A DNA stretch of 64,000 nt from Euzebya rosea (lineage in GTDB: Bacteria > Actinomycetota > Nitriliruptoria > Euzebyales > Euzebyaceae): assembly GCF_003073135.1 (NCBI RefSeq), contig NZ_PGDQ01000007.1:1-64000 (forward strand), written 5' to 3'. The notes below the pieces were generated by a model. That model made no database searches and was not told the origin of the DNA. It saw only the letters and a list, made by a program, of their open reading frames with translations. Within the stretch, counting starts at the first letter, position 1. Each line of letters begins with the position of its first letter. Below are positions 5,645-49,960 of the stretch, one piece after another. A program made the translations under genes and the position numbers.

Positions 5645-6439
5645 ATGAGTGATCGCGTTGTGTTCGAGGCCGCCGAGGATGGTGTCGGCACCGTCACGCT
5701 GAACCGCCCCGACAAGCTCAACGCGATGGACCAGGGGGTCTTCGACGGCCTGCACGACGCCACCGATCGGGCACGCCAGGCCATCGACGCGGGCACGGTC
5801 AGGGCGGTCCTCGTCCGTGCCGAGGGGCGGGCGTTCTCCAGCGGGCTCGATGTCAGCCTCTTCGGCCAGCAGGCCTCGGGCGACACCCCCGCCGACGACT
5901 GGATCGCCTACCTGCAGCAGGCGTTCACCGGCCTGGAGGACCTGCCCGTGCCCGTCGTCGCCGCCATCCGGGGGGTCGCCTTCGGGGCGGGCTGCCAGCT
6001 GGCCCTCGCGGCCCACATGCGGCTCGCCGCGCCGGATGCCGAGATCGCGCTGCTGGAGGCCAAGTGGGCGCTCGTCCCCGACCTCGGTGGCCTGACCCGC
6101 CTGCCGCGGGTCGTCGGCCTGGGCCGTGCGGCGGACATGTCGATGACCGCCCGCCGGGTCGATGCCGCCACGGCCCTGGCGTGGGGGCTCGTCGACCGCG
6201 TGCTGCCCGCCGAGGACTTCGACGAGGCCAGCCGTGCCTTCGTTGCCGAGCTGGCCGCCGGTCCCACGGTCGCCATCGGCGCCGTCCCCGGATTGCTCCG
6301 TCGGTCCTACCGTGCGCAGCGCGAGGACATGCTCGCCGCGGAGCGCCAGCACCAGCAGGCATGCCTCGCCTCGGCGGACTTCGTCGAGGCCGCGACGGCC
6401 GCGATGCAGCGTCGTCCCCCGGCGTTCACCGGACGTTGA
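5645..6439 (+). CDS. Enoyl-CoA hydratase/isomerase family protein
   Basis: A 264-residue crotonase-fold enzyme acting on acyl-CoA thioesters. The two oxyanion-hole segments are clear: FSSGLDVSLFG (about 58) and GVAFGAGCQLALA (about 109). At the active-site turn it has VPDLGGLTRLPR; an Asp here resembles dienoyl-CoA isomerase-type members more than classical hydratases, so isomerase activity is a fair alternative. GAGGA upstream supports the start. It is preceded by the dinB hairpin and its own -10 box, so it is probably transcribed alone. Substrate cannot be deduced, since no beta-oxidation genes flank it. Confidence 0.85.
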   Translation: MSDRVVFEAAEDGVGTVTLNRPDKLNAMDQGVFDGLHDATDRARQAIDAGTVRAVLVRAEGRAFSSGLDVSLFGQQASGDTPADDWIAYLQQAFTGLEDLPVPVVAAIRGVAFGAGCQLALAAHMRLAAPDAEIALLEAKWALVPDLGGLTRLPRVVGLGRAADMSMTARRVDAATALAWGLVDRVLPAEDFDEASRAFVAELAAGPTVAIGAVPGLLRRSYRAQREDMLAAERQHQQACLASADFVEAATAAMQRRPPAFTGR

Positions 6440-6454
6440 CCGACGCCCCACGTA

Positions 6455-6469
6455 CTGAATAGCGTTCAG
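6455..6469. promoter_or_regulatory. Small inverted repeat upstream of the DUF3040 gene
   Basis: CTGAA-tagcg-TTCAG is a perfect 5-bp inverted repeat overlapping a TAGCGT -10-like hexamer (6460-6465). It lies about 150 bp before ATG 6617 and could be an operator; the evidence is slight. Confidence 0.25.
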
Positions 6470-6616
6470 AGTTTCGGCCCGGGCTGGCCCGGTGGTGCAG
6501 CCAGCGTCACAATGGGGCTGCGCCACGGGCGCTGGTGGGCCACAATCGGTCCACGCCTCCGACGCCGATCCATGCGGCTGCGGACACACCCACCCACCCC
6601 AGCGGAGACCGCCACC

Positions 6617-6985
6617 ATGCCCCTCTCGGATCGAGAACAACAGATCCTTTCCGAGATCGAGTCCCAGCTCGCCAACGAGGACTCCAAGTTCGTCAAGCGC
6701 ATCCGTCGGACCCCCGCGAGCCTCGGTCGTGTCCGCCTGCGCTACGCGATCATCGGCCTGGTCGTGGGACTGGTCATGCTGCTGGCCATCGCCATCAACC
6801 CGTGGGGGCCCTTCGTGGCCTTCGCCGGGTTCGTGCTGATGCTCGTCAGCGCCGTGGCAGCCGGCAACCAGCTCAAGACGCTGGGCGAGGATCGCGACAG
6901 CAACCTCGGCGGGCAGCTCAAGGGAGGGTTCAGCCGGTACATGGAGGGACGGCGCCACTCCGACGACGGGGACGACCGGGCCTAG
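6617..6985 (+). CDS. DUF3040 membrane protein
   Basis: A 122-residue protein beginning MPLSDREQQILSEIE, the hallmark of the actinobacterial DUF3040 family. The first 40 residues are cytoplasmic and charged (LSDREQQIL, IESQLANED), followed by two closely spaced membrane helices (about 48-66 and 70-86) and a polar C-terminal tail. The function of the family is unknown. ATG 6617 matches the family N-terminus, although longer frames start upstream. Its stop overlaps the stop of the convergent LysR gene: CTAG at 6982-6985 serves both. Confidence 0.9.
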   Translation: MPLSDREQQILSEIESQLANEDSKFVKRIRRTPASLGRVRLRYAIIGLVVGLVMLLAIAINPWGPFVAFAGFVLMLVSAVAAGNQLKTLGEDRDSNLGGQLKGGFSRYMEGRRHSDDGDDRA

Positions 6986-7857
6986 CGTCCCATCGCCCGG
7001 GCTGCGGCCAGGAAGGCATCGCGGGCCGGCAGGCGCTGACGATCATCGTTCCACGCCAGCGCCACGGTGGCTGGGGGCGCATCCACGACGGGGACGACGA
7101 CGAGGTCGTCTCGCTCGAACAACGTCGACACCGACGACGGCAGGATCGTCAGGGCGACCCCCGTCGCGACGTACTCCAGCTTCTCCTCGAGGGTCCGCAC
7201 GATCGGCCCGGTCGGCACCGGCTTGCCGTCGGGCCTGGGGTCGATGTTGTGCTCGGCGTCCCAGCTGACCGCCACCGGCCCGTCATGACGCACCATCGGC
7301 TCGTCGGCCAGCTCGGCCAGCTGCACCGTCGATCGACGGGCCAGCCGATGGCTGGTGGGCAGCAGCACCATGCGTGACTCCGTCCACAGCGGCTCGACGC
7401 GGAGCCCCTCCCCGACGATGGGCAGGCGTCCCAGCAGCACGTCGGCCGCGCCGGTCCTGAGCACGTCGCCCTGCTCGTACCACTGCACGCGACGCATGCC
7501 GATGTCCGGCTCGTGGCCGTCCGCCCGGAGCGCGGCGACCACGGGACTCGGGCTGACCCCGGGCACGAACGCCACCTCCAGCCGCTGGTGGGCGGTCAGC
7601 CGCCGTCGCGCGGCCTCGGCCGCGACCAGCAGCGCCCGCGCGTCGGCGAGGAAGGTCTTGCCCGCGTCGGTCACCACGACCGAGCGGCTGGTGCGCTCCA
7701 GCAGGGCGACCCCGAGCTGGGACTCCAGTCGCTGGATGCGCCGGCTGACGGCGGACTGGGCCAGGTGGAGCCGTCCTGCTGCCCGACCGAAGTGCTCGGT
7801 GTCGGCCACCTCCACGAAGGTCCGCACCAACCCCAGATCGAGCTCCACGCCGGACAT
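6982..7857 (-). CDS. LysR-family transcriptional regulator
   Basis: A 291-residue regulator. The N-terminal winged helix-turn-helix ([36 protein letters not shown]) is followed by the linker helix and a two-lobed co-inducer domain (from about residue 90: [13 protein letters not shown]). The start at ATG 7857 gives the usual LysR N-terminus; longer upstream frames lack this match. It is divergent from an aldo/keto reductase with 108 bp between the starts, the classical LysR arrangement, so the reductase is the likely target. A 23-bp palindrome in that gap is the likely binding site. Effector unknown. Confidence 0.92.
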
Positions 7858-7891
7858 CGTACGCCCCCCGCGTCGCGGAGAAGTCGTCCCG

Positions 7892-7914
7892 ATCGATGCG
7901 TCGGGGGCATCGAT
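7892..7914. promoter_or_regulatory. Palindromic operator between LysR and aldo/keto reductase genes
   Basis: ATCGATGC at 7892-7899 and GCATCGAT at 7907-7914 form a perfect 8-bp inverted repeat with a 7-bp spacer. It contains T-N11-A (T7897, A7909), the minimal LysR-type box. It lies 34 bp before the regulator start and 51 bp before the reductase start. Confidence 0.65.
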
Positions 7915-7965
7915 GATCGACGACCGGCATGGATGGCGCAGCATCCGACGACAAGACTGCCCGAC

Positions 7966-8943
7966 ATGCACCGAACCACACTGTCCACGATGTCCACCTC
8001 CGCCCTCGGCCTCGGCTGCATGGGCATGACCTTCGCCTACGGGACCGTCGACCGCGACCGCAGCCTCCGGACCCTCGACCGTGCCCTCGAGGAGGGCATC
8101 ACCCTGTTCGACACCGCCGACATCTACGGTCCCCGCACCAACGAGGAGCTCCTGTCGGGGTGGCTCGCCGCGCACCGTGACGACGTGCAGCTGGCCACGA
8201 AGTTCGGGGCCTACTCACTCGAGATCGAGGGCCGCAGCCCCGACGGCCGTCCCGAGTACGTCGGGCGGGCCTGCGACGCCTCCCTGTCGCGGCTCCGCAC
8301 CGACGTCATCGACCTCTACTACCTGCACCGCGTCGACCCGTCGGTGCCCATCGAGGAGACCGTCGGCGCGATGGCCGAGCTCGTCACGGCCGGCAAGGTC
8401 CGCCACCTCGGCCTGTCGGAGGCCTCGGCCGACACCATCCGACGTGCCCACGCGACCCACCCGATCACCGCGCTGCAGACCGAGTACTCCTTGTGGACCC
8501 GCGACATCGAGGCCGAGATCCTGCCGGCCATCCGCGAGCTCGGCATCGGACTCGTGGCCTACAGCCCGCTCGGTCGAGGCATGCTGACGGGCACCATCAC
8601 CTCGCTGGAGGACCTCGCCGAGGACGACTGGCGCCGGTCCAACCCGCGGTTCCGGGGTGACAACCTGCAGCGCAACCTCGACCTCGTGGACGCCGTCACC
8701 GCCCTCGCGGAGACGAAGGGCACGACACCGGCGCAGCTGGCGCTCGCCTGGGTGCTGGCACAGGGTGAGGACATCGTGCCGATCCCCGGCACGACCCGGC
8801 CGGAGCGGGTCAGCGAGAACGTCGCCGCCCTCGAGGTGCCGTTGACCGGGGACGACCTCGCGGCCCTCGACCGGATCGCGCCCATGGGCGTGGCCGCGGG
8901 TGACCGCTATCCGGCAGGCGCCATGCGGATCCTCAACGGCTGA
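7966..8943 (+). CDS. Aldo/keto reductase
   Basis: A 325-residue (alpha/beta)8-barrel NADPH-dependent oxidoreductase. Family motifs: [14 protein letters not shown] near the N-terminus, [21 protein letters not shown] (catalytic Asp and Tyr), LATKFG (Lys), [16 protein letters not shown] (catalytic His), TEYSLWTRD, and [18 protein letters not shown] for cofactor binding. It is closest to the AKR13-like group of soluble reductases acting on aldehydes, but the substrate is unknown. ATG 7966 gives a slightly long N-terminus; ATG 7990 is an alternative. Likely controlled by the divergent LysR protein. Its 3' end overlaps the convergent transglutaminase gene by 11 bp. Confidence 0.92.
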
Positions 8944-44712: not shown

Positions 44713-45657
44713 TCACCGGCGGCTCTGCTGCACCCCTTCGCGGAGCGCGAGGACGCTGCGGTAGGCGAGGTCGACCAGGGCCGCGACGAGGGCACCGGCG
44801 GTCAGCAGGAACACCGCGCCGAGCTGGTTGGCGCGAGGCCATCCACGTGGCACCACCATCTCGCCGAGGGTGGGGATGGGGGCGGAGACGATGCCGGCGT
44901 TGGCGGTGTAGGCGACGTAGGGGAACGCCACGAACAGCAGCAGCACGGCGACGCCACCGGCGATGTACCCCGGACGTCCCCGGACGATCGCGAGGGCGAA
45001 GACCGCGAGGGCAACGGTGATGCCGCCGCCGGCCACCCCGGCAGCAGCCCGGAGCGCGTCGGCCCGGCTGGGATCGGCCCCGAGGAGCACCGACGTCTCG
45101 TTGGTGGCCACCCACAGGCGGCTGGCCATCTGCGCGATCACGGGCACCATCACGAGGACGATGACCGTGGTGGACACGGCGTCGGGCACCGGCCAGCGGG
45201 GTGCGGCGAGCCAGACCGGTCGGCGGGTCACGGGGATGGGTGCGGGCACGGCCAGTCGCTTCGATGGGCGGCGGGCCCGACGACGAAAGGGATTCCGCCG
45301 AGGGGGCTTGGGGATCCGTGGACGGCCGAGCAGGCCCGTGGGTGCGGTCGTGCTGGTCGTGGCCGGACGGTGCGCGGCCTCCGACGTCGTCCCATCCGCC
45401 GACGGGCCGGTGCTCGACGTCCTGCCGGACGACGCGGCCGCGGCTGCTGGACTGCGCGCGGCGGCGGGCTCCTGCGAGCGGGCGGGGGTGGCTTCCGGTG
45501 CCTCCACGCCGTGGCCGGCGCGGCCGTTGCCGTTGCTGGTGCCGTTGACGGCAGCGGGTTCCGGCGGCGCGACGTCCTCGATGTCTGCGGCAGCGCGCAA
45601 GGCGGCGAGGTCGCTGCGAAGGCGCTCAAGCCTGTCCCGGTTCACGTCCTGGCTCAT
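44713..45657 (-). CDS. Hypothetical four-helix membrane protein with long disordered N-terminus
   Basis: A 314-residue protein from ATG 45657 (GTG 45669 is in frame). A short coiled N-terminus (DRLERLRSDLAALRAAADIE) is followed by about 75 residues of Ser/Ala/Thr/Pro, a basic cluster (about 110-140, PPRRNPFRRRARRPSKR), then four helices: VSTTVIVLVMVPVIAQM, GGGITVALAVFALAIVRG, IAGGVAVLLLFVAFPYVAY and AVFLLTAGALVAALVDLAY. No known domain recognised. It is divergent from the sigma-factor gene but lacks the zinc motif of common anti-sigma factors. Confidence 0.65.
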   Translation of the reverse strand: MSQDVNRDRLERLRSDLAALRAAADIEDVAPPEPAAVNGTSNGNGRAGHGVEAPEATPARSQEPAAARSPAAAAASSGRTSSTGPSADGTTSEAAHRPATTSTTAPTGLLGRPRIPKPPRRNPFRRRARRPSKRLAVPAPIPVTRRPVWLAAPRWPVPDAVSTTVIVLVMVPVIAQMASRLWVATNETSVLLGADPSRADALRAAAGVAGGGITVALAVFALAIVRGRPGYIAGGVAVLLLFVAFPYVAYTANAGIVSAPIPTLGEMVVPRGWPRANQLGAVFLLTAGALVAALVDLAYRSVLALREGVQQSRR

Positions 45658-45728: not shown

Positions 45729-45767
45729 GGAGTGGTCATCCGGAACCACTCCTGCGGGAAGGCAGTC
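45729..45767 (+). promoter_or_regulatory. Putative ECF-type promoter and inverted repeat before the sigma-factor gene
   Basis: GGAAC (45742-45746), 18 bases, then GTC (45765-45767) fits an ECF -35/-10 pattern; transcription would begin about 10 bases before GTG 45785. The -35 is embedded in a perfect inverted repeat, GGAGTGGT (45729-45736) and ACCACTCC (45745-45752), with an 8-bp spacer. This suggests autoregulation plus another DNA-binding factor. Confidence 0.5.
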
Positions 45768-45784
45768 GACGCGGTGGGGCCAAC

Positions 45785-46900
45785 GTGACAGCAGTTCATC
45801 CAGGGCAGCACACCCTGCCCGACGACGACAGCGGCCTGATCGAGGCGCATCTCATCGGCATCGAGGGGGCCTTCGACGAGCTCTTTCGTCGCTACCACCC
45901 TCGGCTCGTCACCTACCTGACCCACCGTGTGGGGGACGCCGCAACGGCCGATGACCTGGCCCAGGAATCCCTCATCCGTGCCATGCACGCCCTCGAGCGC
46001 TTCGACACCTCCCGTCCCGTGTGGCCCTGGCTGCGCCGGATCGCGACCAACGCCGCGATCGACTGGTCGCGGTCGACGACCCGTGCGCGGATGCTGGTCA
46101 ACACCCTCTCCCTCGAACCCGCGCGCACCCACGAGGGTCCCGACTTCGGGGAACGCGAGGTGATGGCGCGGGCGATGGAGGCAGTCCCGGACCGCCAGCG
46201 CCACGCGCTGGAGAAGTGCTACGTCGAGGGATGGCGGCCGGTGGACGTCGCCGACCAGTTCGGCGTCGGCAGCAACGCCTTCGAGCAGCTGCTGCACCGT
46301 GCCCGCCGCAACCTGCGGCGTGCCTACGTGCGCCAGGACGACGGCGGCGATCGTGCCGCCGGGTTCATCTGGCTGGCGATGCTGGCCAGCCCGTTCGCCC
46401 GGGCCCTCAACGCGGTCAGGCGCCTCGGCGTTGCCGGGCCCCGCGTGCTGGAGGTGGCTGCCGCATCGGTCGCGATCGGTGCCGTGGTCGCCGTCGGGCC
46501 GACCGGTGCCCCGGCGCCCCGGACCGTGGTCGAGGCACCCGTGGACCGCGTCGAACGGACGACCGCGGCCCCCGACGCACCGACGGCCGCCCTGCCGTCG
46601 GCCGTGTCCGACGTCGGCGACACCGTCGAGGCGGCGGCCGCACCGGTCGGTGCACCGGCGCCCGCACCGCCCAGCGGCGCCGGGCGACCGGCCCCGGTGG
46701 CACCCGACGTCCCTGCTGCCGACGCTGGCGCCCAACGTCCCGTGGCGCCGCCGCTGGACGACACCCCCTTGGATCGCGGCGCGGAGCCCGAGTCGCCGTC
46801 CGCACCCGAGGATCCCCAGTCGGTCCCCGAGCTCATCGGTGGATGCGGCTCGGCCGTGCGCGGGGCCCTCTGCACGACGATCGGTGTGGTGAGCCAGTGA
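45785..46900 (+). CDS. ECF-type RNA polymerase sigma factor with membrane-spanning C-terminal extension
   Basis: A 371-residue protein, about twice the usual ECF length. Sigma region 2 is at about 28-95 (FDELFRRYHPRLVTYL, ADDLAQESLIRAMHALERFD, WPWLRRIATNAAIDWSR) and region 4 at about 130-185 (AVPDRQRHALEKCYVEGWRPVDVADQFGVGSNAFEQLLHRARRNLRR). A hydrophobic stretch follows (VLEVAAASVAIGAVVAVGP, about 220-240), then about 120 residues of Pro/Ala/Asp and a C-terminal pair of Cys (GGCGSAVRGALC). The extension looks like a tether with an external disordered tail, so the sigma factor may be held at the membrane. GTG 45785; the stop overlaps the next start (GTGA). Confidence 0.85.
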   Translation: MTAVHPGQHTLPDDDSGLIEAHLIGIEGAFDELFRRYHPRLVTYLTHRVGDAATADDLAQESLIRAMHALERFDTSRPVWPWLRRIATNAAIDWSRSTTRARMLVNTLSLEPARTHEGPDFGEREVMARAMEAVPDRQRHALEKCYVEGWRPVDVADQFGVGSNAFEQLLHRARRNLRRAYVRQDDGGDRAAGFIWLAMLASPFARALNAVRRLGVAGPRVLEVAAASVAIGAVVAVGPTGAPAPRTVVEAPVDRVERTTAAPDAPTAALPSAVSDVGDTVEAAAAPVGAPAPAPPSGAGRPAPVAPDVPAADAGAQRPVAPPLDDTPLDRGAEPESPSAPEDPQSVPELIGGCGSAVRGALCTTIGVVSQ

Positions 46901-47598
46901 GCTATCCCCGGAGAGACGCCGCCGACCTGCCGGCGGTGGACGAATCGGCCATGCGCGAGGTGGACCGTCGGATGGTCGAGGAGGTCGGCATCGACCTGCC
47001 ACGGATGATGGAGAACGCCGGCCGGCACCTCGCCGACGTCGCCGTCACCATGTTCGCCCCACGCCACGTGGTCGTCCTGTACGGCAGCGGCGGGAACGGG
47101 GGAGGGGCCCTCGTCGCCGCCCGCCACCTCGTCAACCGCGGTGTCGAGGTCACCCTCGTGCCCAGCAGCGGCGCCCTGACCCCCGTACCGGCGGTGCAGC
47201 ACGCGATCCTCGAGCGCATGGGCGTGCTCGAGTCGGCCGGGCGGACGCCGCCGTCCTGTGACGTCGTCATCGACGGCATGGTGGGGTACTCCCTGTCCGG
47301 TTCCCCGAGCGGCCGTGTGGCCGAGCTGGTCGGCTGGGCCGGCGCGCAGAAGGCACCCGTGCTGTCCCTCGACGTGCCCACGGGGTTCTCCGCCGCCAGC
47401 GGCACGACCGCCTCGCCCCACATCACGGCCGCGGCGACCGTCACGCTCGGACTGCCCAAGGCCGGGCTGGTCGGCAACGCCGCAGCCGGTCGGCTGTACC
47501 TCGCCGACATCTCCGTCCCGCCCATCGTCTGGGCCGACATGGCGCTGGACGTCCCGCGCGATCTGTTCGCGCCGGGCCAGGTCCTGCAGCTGGTCTGA
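46897..47598 (+). CDS. NAD(P)H-hydrate epimerase (YjeF N-terminal domain only)
   Basis: A 233-residue protein. Motifs: VDESAMREVDRRMVEEVGIDLPRMMENAGR at the N-terminus, the phosphate-binding YGSGGNGGGALVAARHL, the catalytic-site DVVIDGMVGYSLSGSPSG and LDVPTGFSAASG. It repairs damaged NAD(P)HX by interconverting R and S forms. The ADP-dependent dehydratase domain found fused in many bacteria is missing; it must be elsewhere or absent. Starts within the stop of the sigma-factor gene (GTGA), so the two are translated together. Confidence 0.85.
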   Translation: MSYPRRDAADLPAVDESAMREVDRRMVEEVGIDLPRMMENAGRHLADVAVTMFAPRHVVVLYGSGGNGGGALVAARHLVNRGVEVTLVPSSGALTPVPAVQHAILERMGVLESAGRTPPSCDVVIDGMVGYSLSGSPSGRVAELVGWAGAQKAPVLSLDVPTGFSAASGTTASPHITAAATVTLGLPKAGLVGNAAAGRLYLADISVPPIVWADMALDVPRDLFAPGQVLQLV

Positions 47599-47713
47599 GA
47601 CCGGTTCGGGCACCCTCCGTCCACGGCCTGCGACACGCCATCGCACCGACGGGCGGCTGGCGTGCGAGACTGTCACGGATGTCTACGTGGGATCGACCGG
47701 TCGGAATCGCCCG

Positions 47714-49222
47714 GTGAGCACCGAGAGCGCGGTGCTCGCCGATCGATATCGCCTGACCGATTCCATCGGTCGAGGCGGCATGGCCGATGTCTACGCCGCT
47801 GAGGACACCAGCTCCGGCCGCATGGTCGCGGTCAAGATCATGCGGGTCGGCGAGCAGGCGGACCCCGATCGGTTCGCCTCGGAGATGCGCATCCTCGACC
47901 GGCTGTCGCACCCCGCGATCGTGCGGCTCTTCGACAGCGGGACCACCGACGAGGCCAGCCCCTACTTCGTCATGCAGCTGGTCGACGGCGAGTCGCTGTC
48001 GGCCCGCCTCCGGGCCGAGGGGCCCCTGGCCGACGAGGACGCCGAGGACATCGGCGCCCGGGTGGCCAGCGCCCTCGCCCACGCCCACGACATGGGCGTC
48101 ATCCACCGCGACATCAAGCCCGCCAACATCCTCATCGACACCGACGGTGGCGCCTACCTGACCGACTTCGGTGTCGCGCGACTGGCCGATGCGACGCTCG
48201 TCACCCGCGCCGGGACCACCATCGGCACCGCCGCCTACCTCGCACCCGAGCAGCTCCAGGACTCCCAGGTGGGGCCAGCTGCCGACGTCTACTCCTTCGG
48301 CCTGGTGATGCTGGAGTCCCTGACGGGCACCCGCGCCTTCCGTGGCACCGGCGTGGAAGCCGCCATGGCCCGCCTCAGCCGCGATCCGGTCGTCCCCGAC
48401 GACCTGCAGGAGCCATGGACGCCGCTGCTCGTGGCCATGACACGCAGGGACCCGACCCTGCGGCCGACCGCCGCCGAGGTCGAGCTGATCATCCGTGGCG
48501 AGCTGCCCGCCCCCGACGTGCCGGAGGAGGAGATCGCCTCCCGAACCGGCGGGCCGCGCAACACCGACGAGGATCCCACCGCCGTTTCCCAACCCTTCGA
48601 CGGACCCTCCTCCGGGTCCGGACCGTGGGAACCGCCGAGCAGCGACTCGGCGTTGTCCGTGGCGGTCGTGCCACCCACGCCGCCGCCGACACCCGCGCTG
48701 GGCATCCCCGAGGCAGCCACACCGCCGCATCCGACCGTGCCGGCCCCCGCACCCTTCCTCGAGGACCTCCCGCGACGGGGGATGGACGCCATCAGGTCCA
48801 GGGCGTTGCTGGTCGGCCTGCTGCTCGGCGTCGCGGTCGTCCTTGGTGGCTTCGGTGTGTTCCGCCTGGTCCAGCCGGTCGACGAGACCGACATGGTGAC
48901 GGGCACCGATGCCGTCGACGAAGCCGCCCGTCAGGTGCTGGCCATCCTCGACGCCTCCGAACGCCTGCGGGCCGCCGACCCCTCCCTGCAGCGCGAGCTG
49001 GTCTCGTTGGCCGACAACATCGTGGAGTCCGTCAACGAGGACCGCTGGGACAGCGCCCTGCTCGGCGTCGTCGCCATGACCAGCGCCACCCGTGATGCCA
49101 TCGACACCCTCGACATCGAACCGGTCGCGCTGAACGGGCTCCTCGAGGCGTTGCGCGACCTGACACGCGAGATCGAGCTCCTGGCAGGGGCCGAGGCGTC
49201 GGGAACCGACCCACCCGAGTGA
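47714..49222 (+). CDS. Transmembrane Ser/Thr protein kinase
   Basis: A 502-residue Hanks-type kinase. Gly loop IGRGGMADVYAAED, Lys41 in VAVKIM, catalytic loop VIHRDIKPANIL (about 135), DFGVARL, and APEQLQDSQVGPAADVYSFG. A Pro-rich juxtamembrane segment (about 275-365) leads to a helix (LLVGLLLGVAVVLGGFGVFRLV, about 372-394). The external 105 residues are helical and acidic, with no PASTA repeats, so the ligand is not obvious. GTG 47714 is chosen; GTG 47687 is in frame. It follows the epimerase by 115 bp and may belong to the sigma-factor transcription unit. Confidence 0.92.
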   Translation: MSTESAVLADRYRLTDSIGRGGMADVYAAEDTSSGRMVAVKIMRVGEQADPDRFASEMRILDRLSHPAIVRLFDSGTTDEASPYFVMQLVDGESLSARLRAEGPLADEDAEDIGARVASALAHAHDMGVIHRDIKPANILIDTDGGAYLTDFGVARLADATLVTRAGTTIGTAAYLAPEQLQDSQVGPAADVYSFGLVMLESLTGTRAFRGTGVEAAMARLSRDPVVPDDLQEPWTPLLVAMTRRDPTLRPTAAEVELIIRGELPAPDVPEEEIASRTGGPRNTDEDPTAVSQPFDGPSSGSGPWEPPSSDSALSVAVVPPTPPPTPALGIPEAATPPHPTVPAPAPFLEDLPRRGMDAIRSRALLVGLLLGVAVVLGGFGVFRLVQPVDETDMVTGTDAVDEAARQVLAILDASERLRAADPSLQRELVSLADNIVESVNEDRWDSALLGVVAMTSATRDAIDTLDIEPVALNGLLEALRDLTREIELLAGAEASGTDPPE

Positions 49223-49315: not shown

Positions 49316-49960
49316 ATGGTTCGCGGAGCTCGAGTCGCCGACGAGGCCGTACGTGCCTACATGGAGGCACTGCAGGACCCCAACACGGCCGTGGACTGGG
49401 ACGAGGTCGAGGAGCTCGCGGCACAGATCGCCGAGGCGACCGACCCCGTCCGTCGTGTGCTCCTTCGTGCGGAGTGGCGCCGGGCGTCCGACCCCGCCAC
49501 CTACATGCCCGACCTCGAGGCCGACTACATCGCCTTCGCGGCGCAGTGGGCCCAGGCGAACCGCGTGACCGGTGACGACTTCTTCTACGAGGGCGTCCCG
49601 TTGCAGGTGCTCCGCGAGGCCGGCCTCGGCATCTCCGAGGAAGCCCGTGCATACGCCGACGGCGACGACGACATGGACCTCGCCGACGACGACGCCCCGG
49701 CCGCTCCGGCTGCCGCGGCCGCCTCGGAGTCCGACGAGGACGGCCCCCTGTTCGAGGAGGGCAGCGCGATGGAGAGCGTCTACAACGCCATCGGCACCGA
49801 ACCCTTCACGATAAACGACCTGGTCGACCGGGCCGACGCCAGCCGCTCCACCGTTCGTGCCGTGCTCGACAAGCTCGAGGAAGCCGGCAAGCTCGAGGAG
49901 CTCGCACCGCTGGACACCGGCACCGCCGGTCGCGCGCCGAAGCGTTACCAGCTGACCTGA
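49316..49960 (+). CDS. Hypothetical protein with C-terminal winged-helix-like domain
   Basis: A 214-residue acidic protein. The start is fixed by CAGGAGG 6 bases upstream. Residues 1-115 look helical (DEAVRAYMEALQD, WDEVEELAAQIAEATDPVRRVLLRAEW). Residues about 118-148 are an Asp/Ala-rich disordered linker. The last 65 residues fit a winged helix-turn-helix (SVYNAIGTEPFTINDLVDRADASRSTVRAVLDKLEEAGKLEEL). The layout suggests a DNA-binding domain joined to an interaction domain; alternatively a nucleoid protein. No family recognised with certainty. The unusually good ribosome site predicts strong expression. Confidence 0.7.
   Translation: MVRGARVADEAVRAYMEALQDPNTAVDWDEVEELAAQIAEATDPVRRVLLRAEWRRASDPATYMPDLEADYIAFAAQWAQANRVTGDDFFYEGVPLQVLREAGLGISEEARAYADGDDDMDLADDDAPAAPAAAAASESDEDGPLFEEGSAMESVYNAIGTEPFTINDLVDRADASRSTVRAVLDKLEEAGKLEELAPLDTGTAGRAPKRYQLT

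Follow-up and report, generated by a model that had tools for sequence, protein, structure and literature searches.

Three neighbouring genes in the 64,000-nucleotide stretch of Euzebya rosea DNA analysed here (the window), encoding a sigma factor that bears an extended C-terminal tail, a YjeF_N protein and a membrane Ser/Thr kinase, raise two questions: whether the sigma factor is held at the membrane by its own tail, and whether the three genes work as a unit. An earlier note, made from the sequence alone, had proposed both, describing a self-contained redox or envelope stress module that included the kinase.

The locus

The genome measures 5.5 Mb, has 54 sigma region-4 matches and carries the window on contig 7. 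The positions that had been given for the three genes proved correct (Table 1); the sigma gene starts with GTG and stops with TGA, and the YjeF_N gene likewise starts with GTG. Below, G000 denotes the window genome and G001, G002 and G003 the other genomes of the genus, of which G003 holds the orthologs.

Table 1. Features of the locus (window coordinates) and tailed paralogs (coordinates after the locus name). Conservation of the sigma tail is that of one ortholog pair (G000/G003), a single close ortholog.
Feature	Position	Strand	Remarks
Perfect palindrome GGAGTGGT-8-ACCACTCC, 8-bp arms	45729..45752	.	only exact copy in genome; identical in G003
ECF-like promoter candidate GGAAC-N18-GTC	45742..45767	+	about 17-18 bp before GTG start
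ECF sigma factor, 371 aa, C-terminal extension	45785..46900	+	Pfam; G003 ortholog 85%
Sigma aa 186-219, basic juxtamembrane stretch, predicted helix 191-213	46340..46441	+	33/34 identical to G003
Sigma aa 220-240, hydrophobic, probable single membrane helix (marginal)	46442..46504	+	21/21 identical to G003
Sigma aa 241-346, Pro/Ala-rich, predicted disordered, fast-evolving	46505..46822	+	63% identical to G003
Sigma aa 347-371, conserved end, Cys354 and Cys363	46823..46897	+	21/25 (84%) identical to G003
YjeF_N protein, stand-alone; start overlaps sigma stop	46897..47599	+	Pfam PF03853, TIGR00197
Hanks-type Ser/Thr kinase, 502 aa; one membrane helix, external four-helix bundle	47714..49222	+	
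Kinase membrane helix and external sensor domain	48782..49219	+	predicted four-helix bundle, genus-restricted
Kinase 3' neighbour in 4/4 genus genomes	49316..49960	+	gene-order comparison
Tailed paralog L077	6061-7200		ends CSGSGAIPVLSC plus few residues
Tailed paralog L104	608-1690		ends CDVVAVAPDPVSC plus few residues
Tailed paralog L090	5426-6589		ends CELVDPVPDALVDC plus few residues
Tailed paralog L092	5483-6532		without Cys

An ECF sigma factor with a marginal membrane segment

The core of the sigma factor is matched by Pfam Sigma70_r2 (aa 33-100, 6.4e-18) and r4_2 (aa 126-177, 4.3e-9), and the protein scores 76.5 bits against TIGR02937 (cutoff 42.9). With sigma2 and sigma4 and without sigma3, it belongs by its predicted domains to the ECF (sigma70 group IV) factors. 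Its best solved relative is SigL (6dv9), and AlphaFold2 modelled the core with confidence as an ordinary ECF. The core is 94% identical between G000 and G003.

Beyond sigma4, residues 220-240 are the best membrane candidate within the protein, with an estimated insertion energy of about +1.2 kcal/mol (the scale and its position weighting are approximate); the kinase helix gave -1.3 and soluble controls +2.0 to +7.4. The hydrophobic segment that had been described is present and conserved, but weaker than claimed, about +1.2 being marginal. Four synonymous codon differences separate the segment in G000 from that in G003, and the protein is unchanged. The Pro/Ala-rich tail with two terminal cysteines is real as well, at ~130 aa; Cys354 and Cys363 lie 17 and 8 residues from the C-terminus, both are kept in G003, and aa 146-353 contain no cysteine at all. 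AlphaFold2 placed helices at 191-213 and 219-234 with low confidence, left the tail disordered and gave no folded external domain. Searches with Pfam found neither a zinc-finger nor any other known domain after sigma4.

In layout, the protein resembles ECF52 (SCO4117, Streptomyces coelicolor), ECF48 and ECF53, which are likewise actinobacterial and combine an ECF core with a C-terminal membrane segment and a proline-rich external extension; where these groups have their membrane helix, the window sigma factor has one marginal, conserved segment. It differs from all three in that no ZAS-type zinc finger separates sigma4 from the membrane segment and the tail ends in a short Cys-pair tip, and from ECF52 in having no carbohydrate-binding module: no Pfam match to one was found at its end, where the tail is predicted disordered. 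The described membrane-tailed ECFs carry a recognisable anti-sigma (zinc-finger) domain (PMC8999054, PMC5826349). Members of ECF52 and ECF243 are thought or shown to be released from the membrane by proteolysis (PMC8999054, PMC5826349), the release being a proposal in the case of ECF52 (PMC5826349, PMC8999054). IutY of Pseudomonas putida (ECF243) likewise unites a sigma core and a membrane tail in one polypeptide, here a fusion with a membrane anti-sigma, and is set free by proteolysis (PMC8999054); however, its anti-sigma domain is complete and it works within a cell-surface signalling system, and neither was seen for the window protein. The tail is best read, from its sequence, as a variant of the known membrane-fused ECFs.

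Cysteine-ended tails recur within and beyond the genome

Four other sigma factors of G000 (L077, L104, L090 and L092) share this layout, with a hydrophobic segment and a tail rich in Pro, Ala and Thr, and in all but L092 the tail closes with a Cys pair of the form C-x(10-12)-C. The three Cys-ended ones, too, have no zinc-finger anti-sigma domain. The orthologs of L104 and L090 in G003 keep the pairs, with linkers only 48% and 24% identical. The hydrophobic segments of the paralogs are unrelated in sequence and more hydrophobic (-0.43 kcal/mol in L092; hydropathy 2.2-2.6 in L077, L104 and L092). The membrane-type tail on a sigma factor that the earlier note described thus stands as an architecture that recurs in paralogs and whose segment is conserved.

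These comparisons also bear on another reading, in which the tail would be soluble and cytoplasmic, its Ala/Gly/Val-rich helix packing on the core or on a partner and exerting conformational control with no membrane involved. Several ECF groups, e.g. ECF41 and ECF56, do use soluble C-terminal extensions (PMC8999054), and the marginal hydrophobicity agrees with such a tail. However, no folded domain is predicted, no SnoaL-type extension of the ECF41/ECF56 kind was matched by Pfam anywhere in the sigma factor, and the equivalent segments of the paralogs are clearly more hydrophobic in spite of their unrelated sequences. We consider a soluble tail unlikely.

Outside the genus, a tailed sigma relative in G050 carries CEGTGATAC, and a relative in a Frankiaceae MAG ends in VCQLPGVQCSAH (VCQLPGVQC). 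A named-genome scan with generic ECF motifs gave, among the matches listed, one useful locus, L133, where a similar Cys pair is present. In G050 (L076), two sigma relatives stand in tandem (5939-6685 and 6928-8094), one tail-less and one with a membrane-type tail and a Cys end. A plasmid search for sigma relatives returned generic ECFs only. Elsewhere in the phylum, ECFs with a TM tail are common, with tails that differ from the window type: L221, L225 and L226 have a Cys-rich, zinc-finger-like stretch ahead of the helix, in some others the external region is larger, and several lack the terminal Cys pair. Two phylum relatives (L219:1456-3042 and L229:631-2238) combine a sigma core and a membrane helix with a long linker rich in Pro and one more external region, which contains a CxC motif.

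In a tree of the cores, the window sigma factor groups with G003, G050, L133 and L077 (support 100/95), while the L090/L104 types form another supported clade (97/94). Only clades were taken from this tree, as the tail-less row L092_6651 had been labelled TM and the count of changes was therefore set aside. TM-tailed sigma factors fall into several separate clades and Cys-ended tails into two supported ones; therefore, the Cys-ended tail would either have arisen more than once or have been lost often.

The candidate promoter

Upstream of the sigma gene, an ECF-like promoter had been proposed within a palindrome, with autoregulation as its consequence. The motif is present, overlaps the palindrome and is conserved in G003, but it occurs at chance frequency: the window holds 10 copies of GGAAC-N17-19-GTC, with 9.96 expected. 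Intergenic DNA here is rich in perfect 8-bp inverted repeats (40 listed, many in overlapping registers). A 39-bp run identical to G003 spans both palindrome and motif (P about 0.03 on shuffling 16 differences over 127 bp). Genome-wide, no further exact or close copy of the block was found in G000 or G003, near-matches looking like scattered degenerate repeats, and with no second copy in the genome it was dropped as a regulon marker. The regions upstream of the paralog pairs gave no shared GGAAC/GTC. Position and conservation make the candidate promoter, and with it autoregulation, plausible.

A second YjeF_N protein with an altered glycine loop

The GTGA overlap between the sigma and YjeF_N genes, also described before, is as stated and is kept in G003. 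The YjeF_N protein matches PF03853 with 123 bits and TIGR00197 with 112 (cutoff 88.6), and it keeps, 45 residues from its end, Lys188, a lysine reported to be catalytic in NAD(P)HX epimerase (PMC5938422). In family match and in the position of this lysine it is like the NAD(P)H-hydrate epimerases (TM0922 N-domain, mouse AIBP); it differs from them in standing alone and in its glycine loop, GSGGNGGGA rather than GxGNNGGDG. The genome also encodes a normal fused epimerase-dehydratase (G000:C6) with the loop GKGNNGGDG, flanked, on our reading of the sequences, by acyl-carrier-protein synthase-like and alanine racemase-like genes; such neighbours of the epimerase-dehydratase have been described (PMC5938422). 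The window protein is accordingly, to judge from sequence, a divergent second copy beside the normal fused enzyme. Because of this, the name 'NADHX epimerase' given to it holds, on family match and lysine, as a family-level label only.

The replacement of GNNGGDG by GGNGGGG or GGNGGGA marks a stand-alone YjeF_N subfamily. GGNGGG takes the place of GNNGGDG at the subfamily loci L078, L079, L080, L081, L083, L084 and L085, and elsewhere members adjoin debranching-enzyme-, glucosidase-, sugar-kinase- or G6P-dehydrogenase-like genes (from a reading of N-termini).

Might the locus then be an NAD(P)HX repair unit, whose sigma factor would sense redox or metabolite damage and induce the translationally coupled epimerase? 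The overlap conserved in both genomes and the catalytic-type lysine (PMC5938422) speak for it. On the other side stand the fused enzyme with the standard loop already present in the genome, the GGNGGG of the window copy and its whole subfamily, and the subfamily's sugar-metabolism-like rather than sigma-factor neighbours elsewhere. We regard such a unit as improbable.

The kinase forms no conserved unit with the sigma factor

By reading, the motifs of the kinase are intact (GRGGMADVY, AVKIM, HRDIKPAN and DFG), and it has one strong hydrophobic segment. The model of its external domain is a bundle of four helices, with block pLDDT values of 77-96, and a fold search against the PDB returned generic helical bundles, with nothing below E 0.1. 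The sensor is present in 4/4 genus genomes and in 0/57 others of the class; the phylum sample outside the genus gave one weak partial match. The external domain, called novel-looking in the earlier note, has no Pfam match. The protein shares with PknB-like membrane Ser/Thr kinases a kinase domain, one membrane helix and an external sensor; unlike theirs, its sensor is predicted as a small four-helix bundle, found in this genus only, and not as PASTA repeats. Against the PASTA kinase model for PknB/Stk1 (NF033483) it scored 254.6 bits, below the cutoff of 450, with no PASTA match.

We then compared the gene order in the four genus genomes, a small sample in which the two that bear the sigma-YjeF pair are close relatives. 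The two genes occur together only in G000 and G003, and the sigma gene lies next to the kinase in these 2/4. In G001 and G002, the kinase directly adjoins the divergent membrane-protein gene that lies at 44713-45657 in the window, with no sigma or YjeF_N gene between, and has the same gene downstream as here. That downstream gene has a possible winged-helix C-terminus and is a candidate partner of the kinase. The closest sigma relatives elsewhere (G050 and the Frankiaceae MAG) have neither YjeF_N nor a kinase alongside.

The three-gene module is unsupported, since the kinase occurs with its sensor and downstream neighbour in genomes without the pair and the sigma relatives occur without both partners; the conservation of gene order on which the earlier note had staked its proposal fails for the kinase in G001 and G002. 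The kinase is, judged by synteny, an independent and older gene of the genus, adjacent to the sigma factor but outside any conserved unit with it. Because the locus stands without the pair in G001 and G002, the pair would have been either gained in, or lost from, an otherwise stand-alone kinase locus in some species.

The same comparison weighs on the possibility that the sigma factor is a phosphorylation substrate of the kinase, as EcfP/EcfK of ECF43 are of PknT/PknS, the three genes then being one signalling unit. There, too, the ECF gene neighbours that of a Hanks-type kinase possessing a membrane helix, a precedent (PMC13147305) that joins the same-strand adjacency in G000 and G003 and the presence of Thr54 where the DxxD motif begins. 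However, in ECF43 this acidic motif is replaced by an uncharged QTTA-like sequence (PMC13147305), whereas the RNAP core-binding motif of the window sigma factor, TADDLAQE, keeps acidic residues in part. The window sigma factor also has a membrane-type tail. Nor do sigma factor and kinase co-occur as in ECF43: two of the four genus genomes pair them and other relatives do not, while kinase, sensor and downstream neighbour do without the sigma factor in G001 and G002. Moreover, the kinase starts about 115 bp after the YjeF_N stop, and the gap has well-conserved sequence of its own. With core-binding motif and synteny against it, ECF43-type activation by the kinase was marked down, and we hold it to be very doubtful.

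Discussion

We come back to the sigma factor, whose architecture suggests an ECF that its own C-terminal tail keeps at the membrane until, presumably, proteolysis releases it, a reading to which we give about an even chance. From membrane insertion and topology to proteolytic release, the role of the cysteines and autoregulation, we infer the following course. The sigma2-sigma4 core would be followed by a basic juxtamembrane helix, a short membrane helix (N-in, C-out), an external Pro/Ala linker and the Cys tip, and the tethered protein would presumably be unavailable to RNA polymerase. An envelope signal, possibly the redox state of the Cys tip or binding to it, would bring about a cut close to the membrane; the core, set free, would then transcribe its own sigma-YjeF pair from GGAAC-N18-GTC. 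It counts against tethering that Pfam finds no anti-sigma-like domain to account for inhibition. The weakness of the hydrophobic segment, its low confidence in the AlphaFold2 model and the chance frequency of the promoter motif also speak against this course.

A bolder reading, for which we see only a small chance as a whole, is that these proteins are one-protein transmembrane redox sensors, in which a disordered linker spans the wall between a membrane anchor and an external Cys pair whose oxidation state controls release, and that several ECFs of the lineage acquired this design independently and without an anti-sigma factor.

The locus illustrates that a striking neighbourhood of sigma factor, redox-repair enzyme and kinase can be a local juxtaposition and not a conserved module. 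A recurrent tail form of this kind, with a conserved two-Cys tip on a disordered external linker and no anti-sigma domain, would be a minimal transmembrane switch, and one would have to ask how its sigma factor is kept off.
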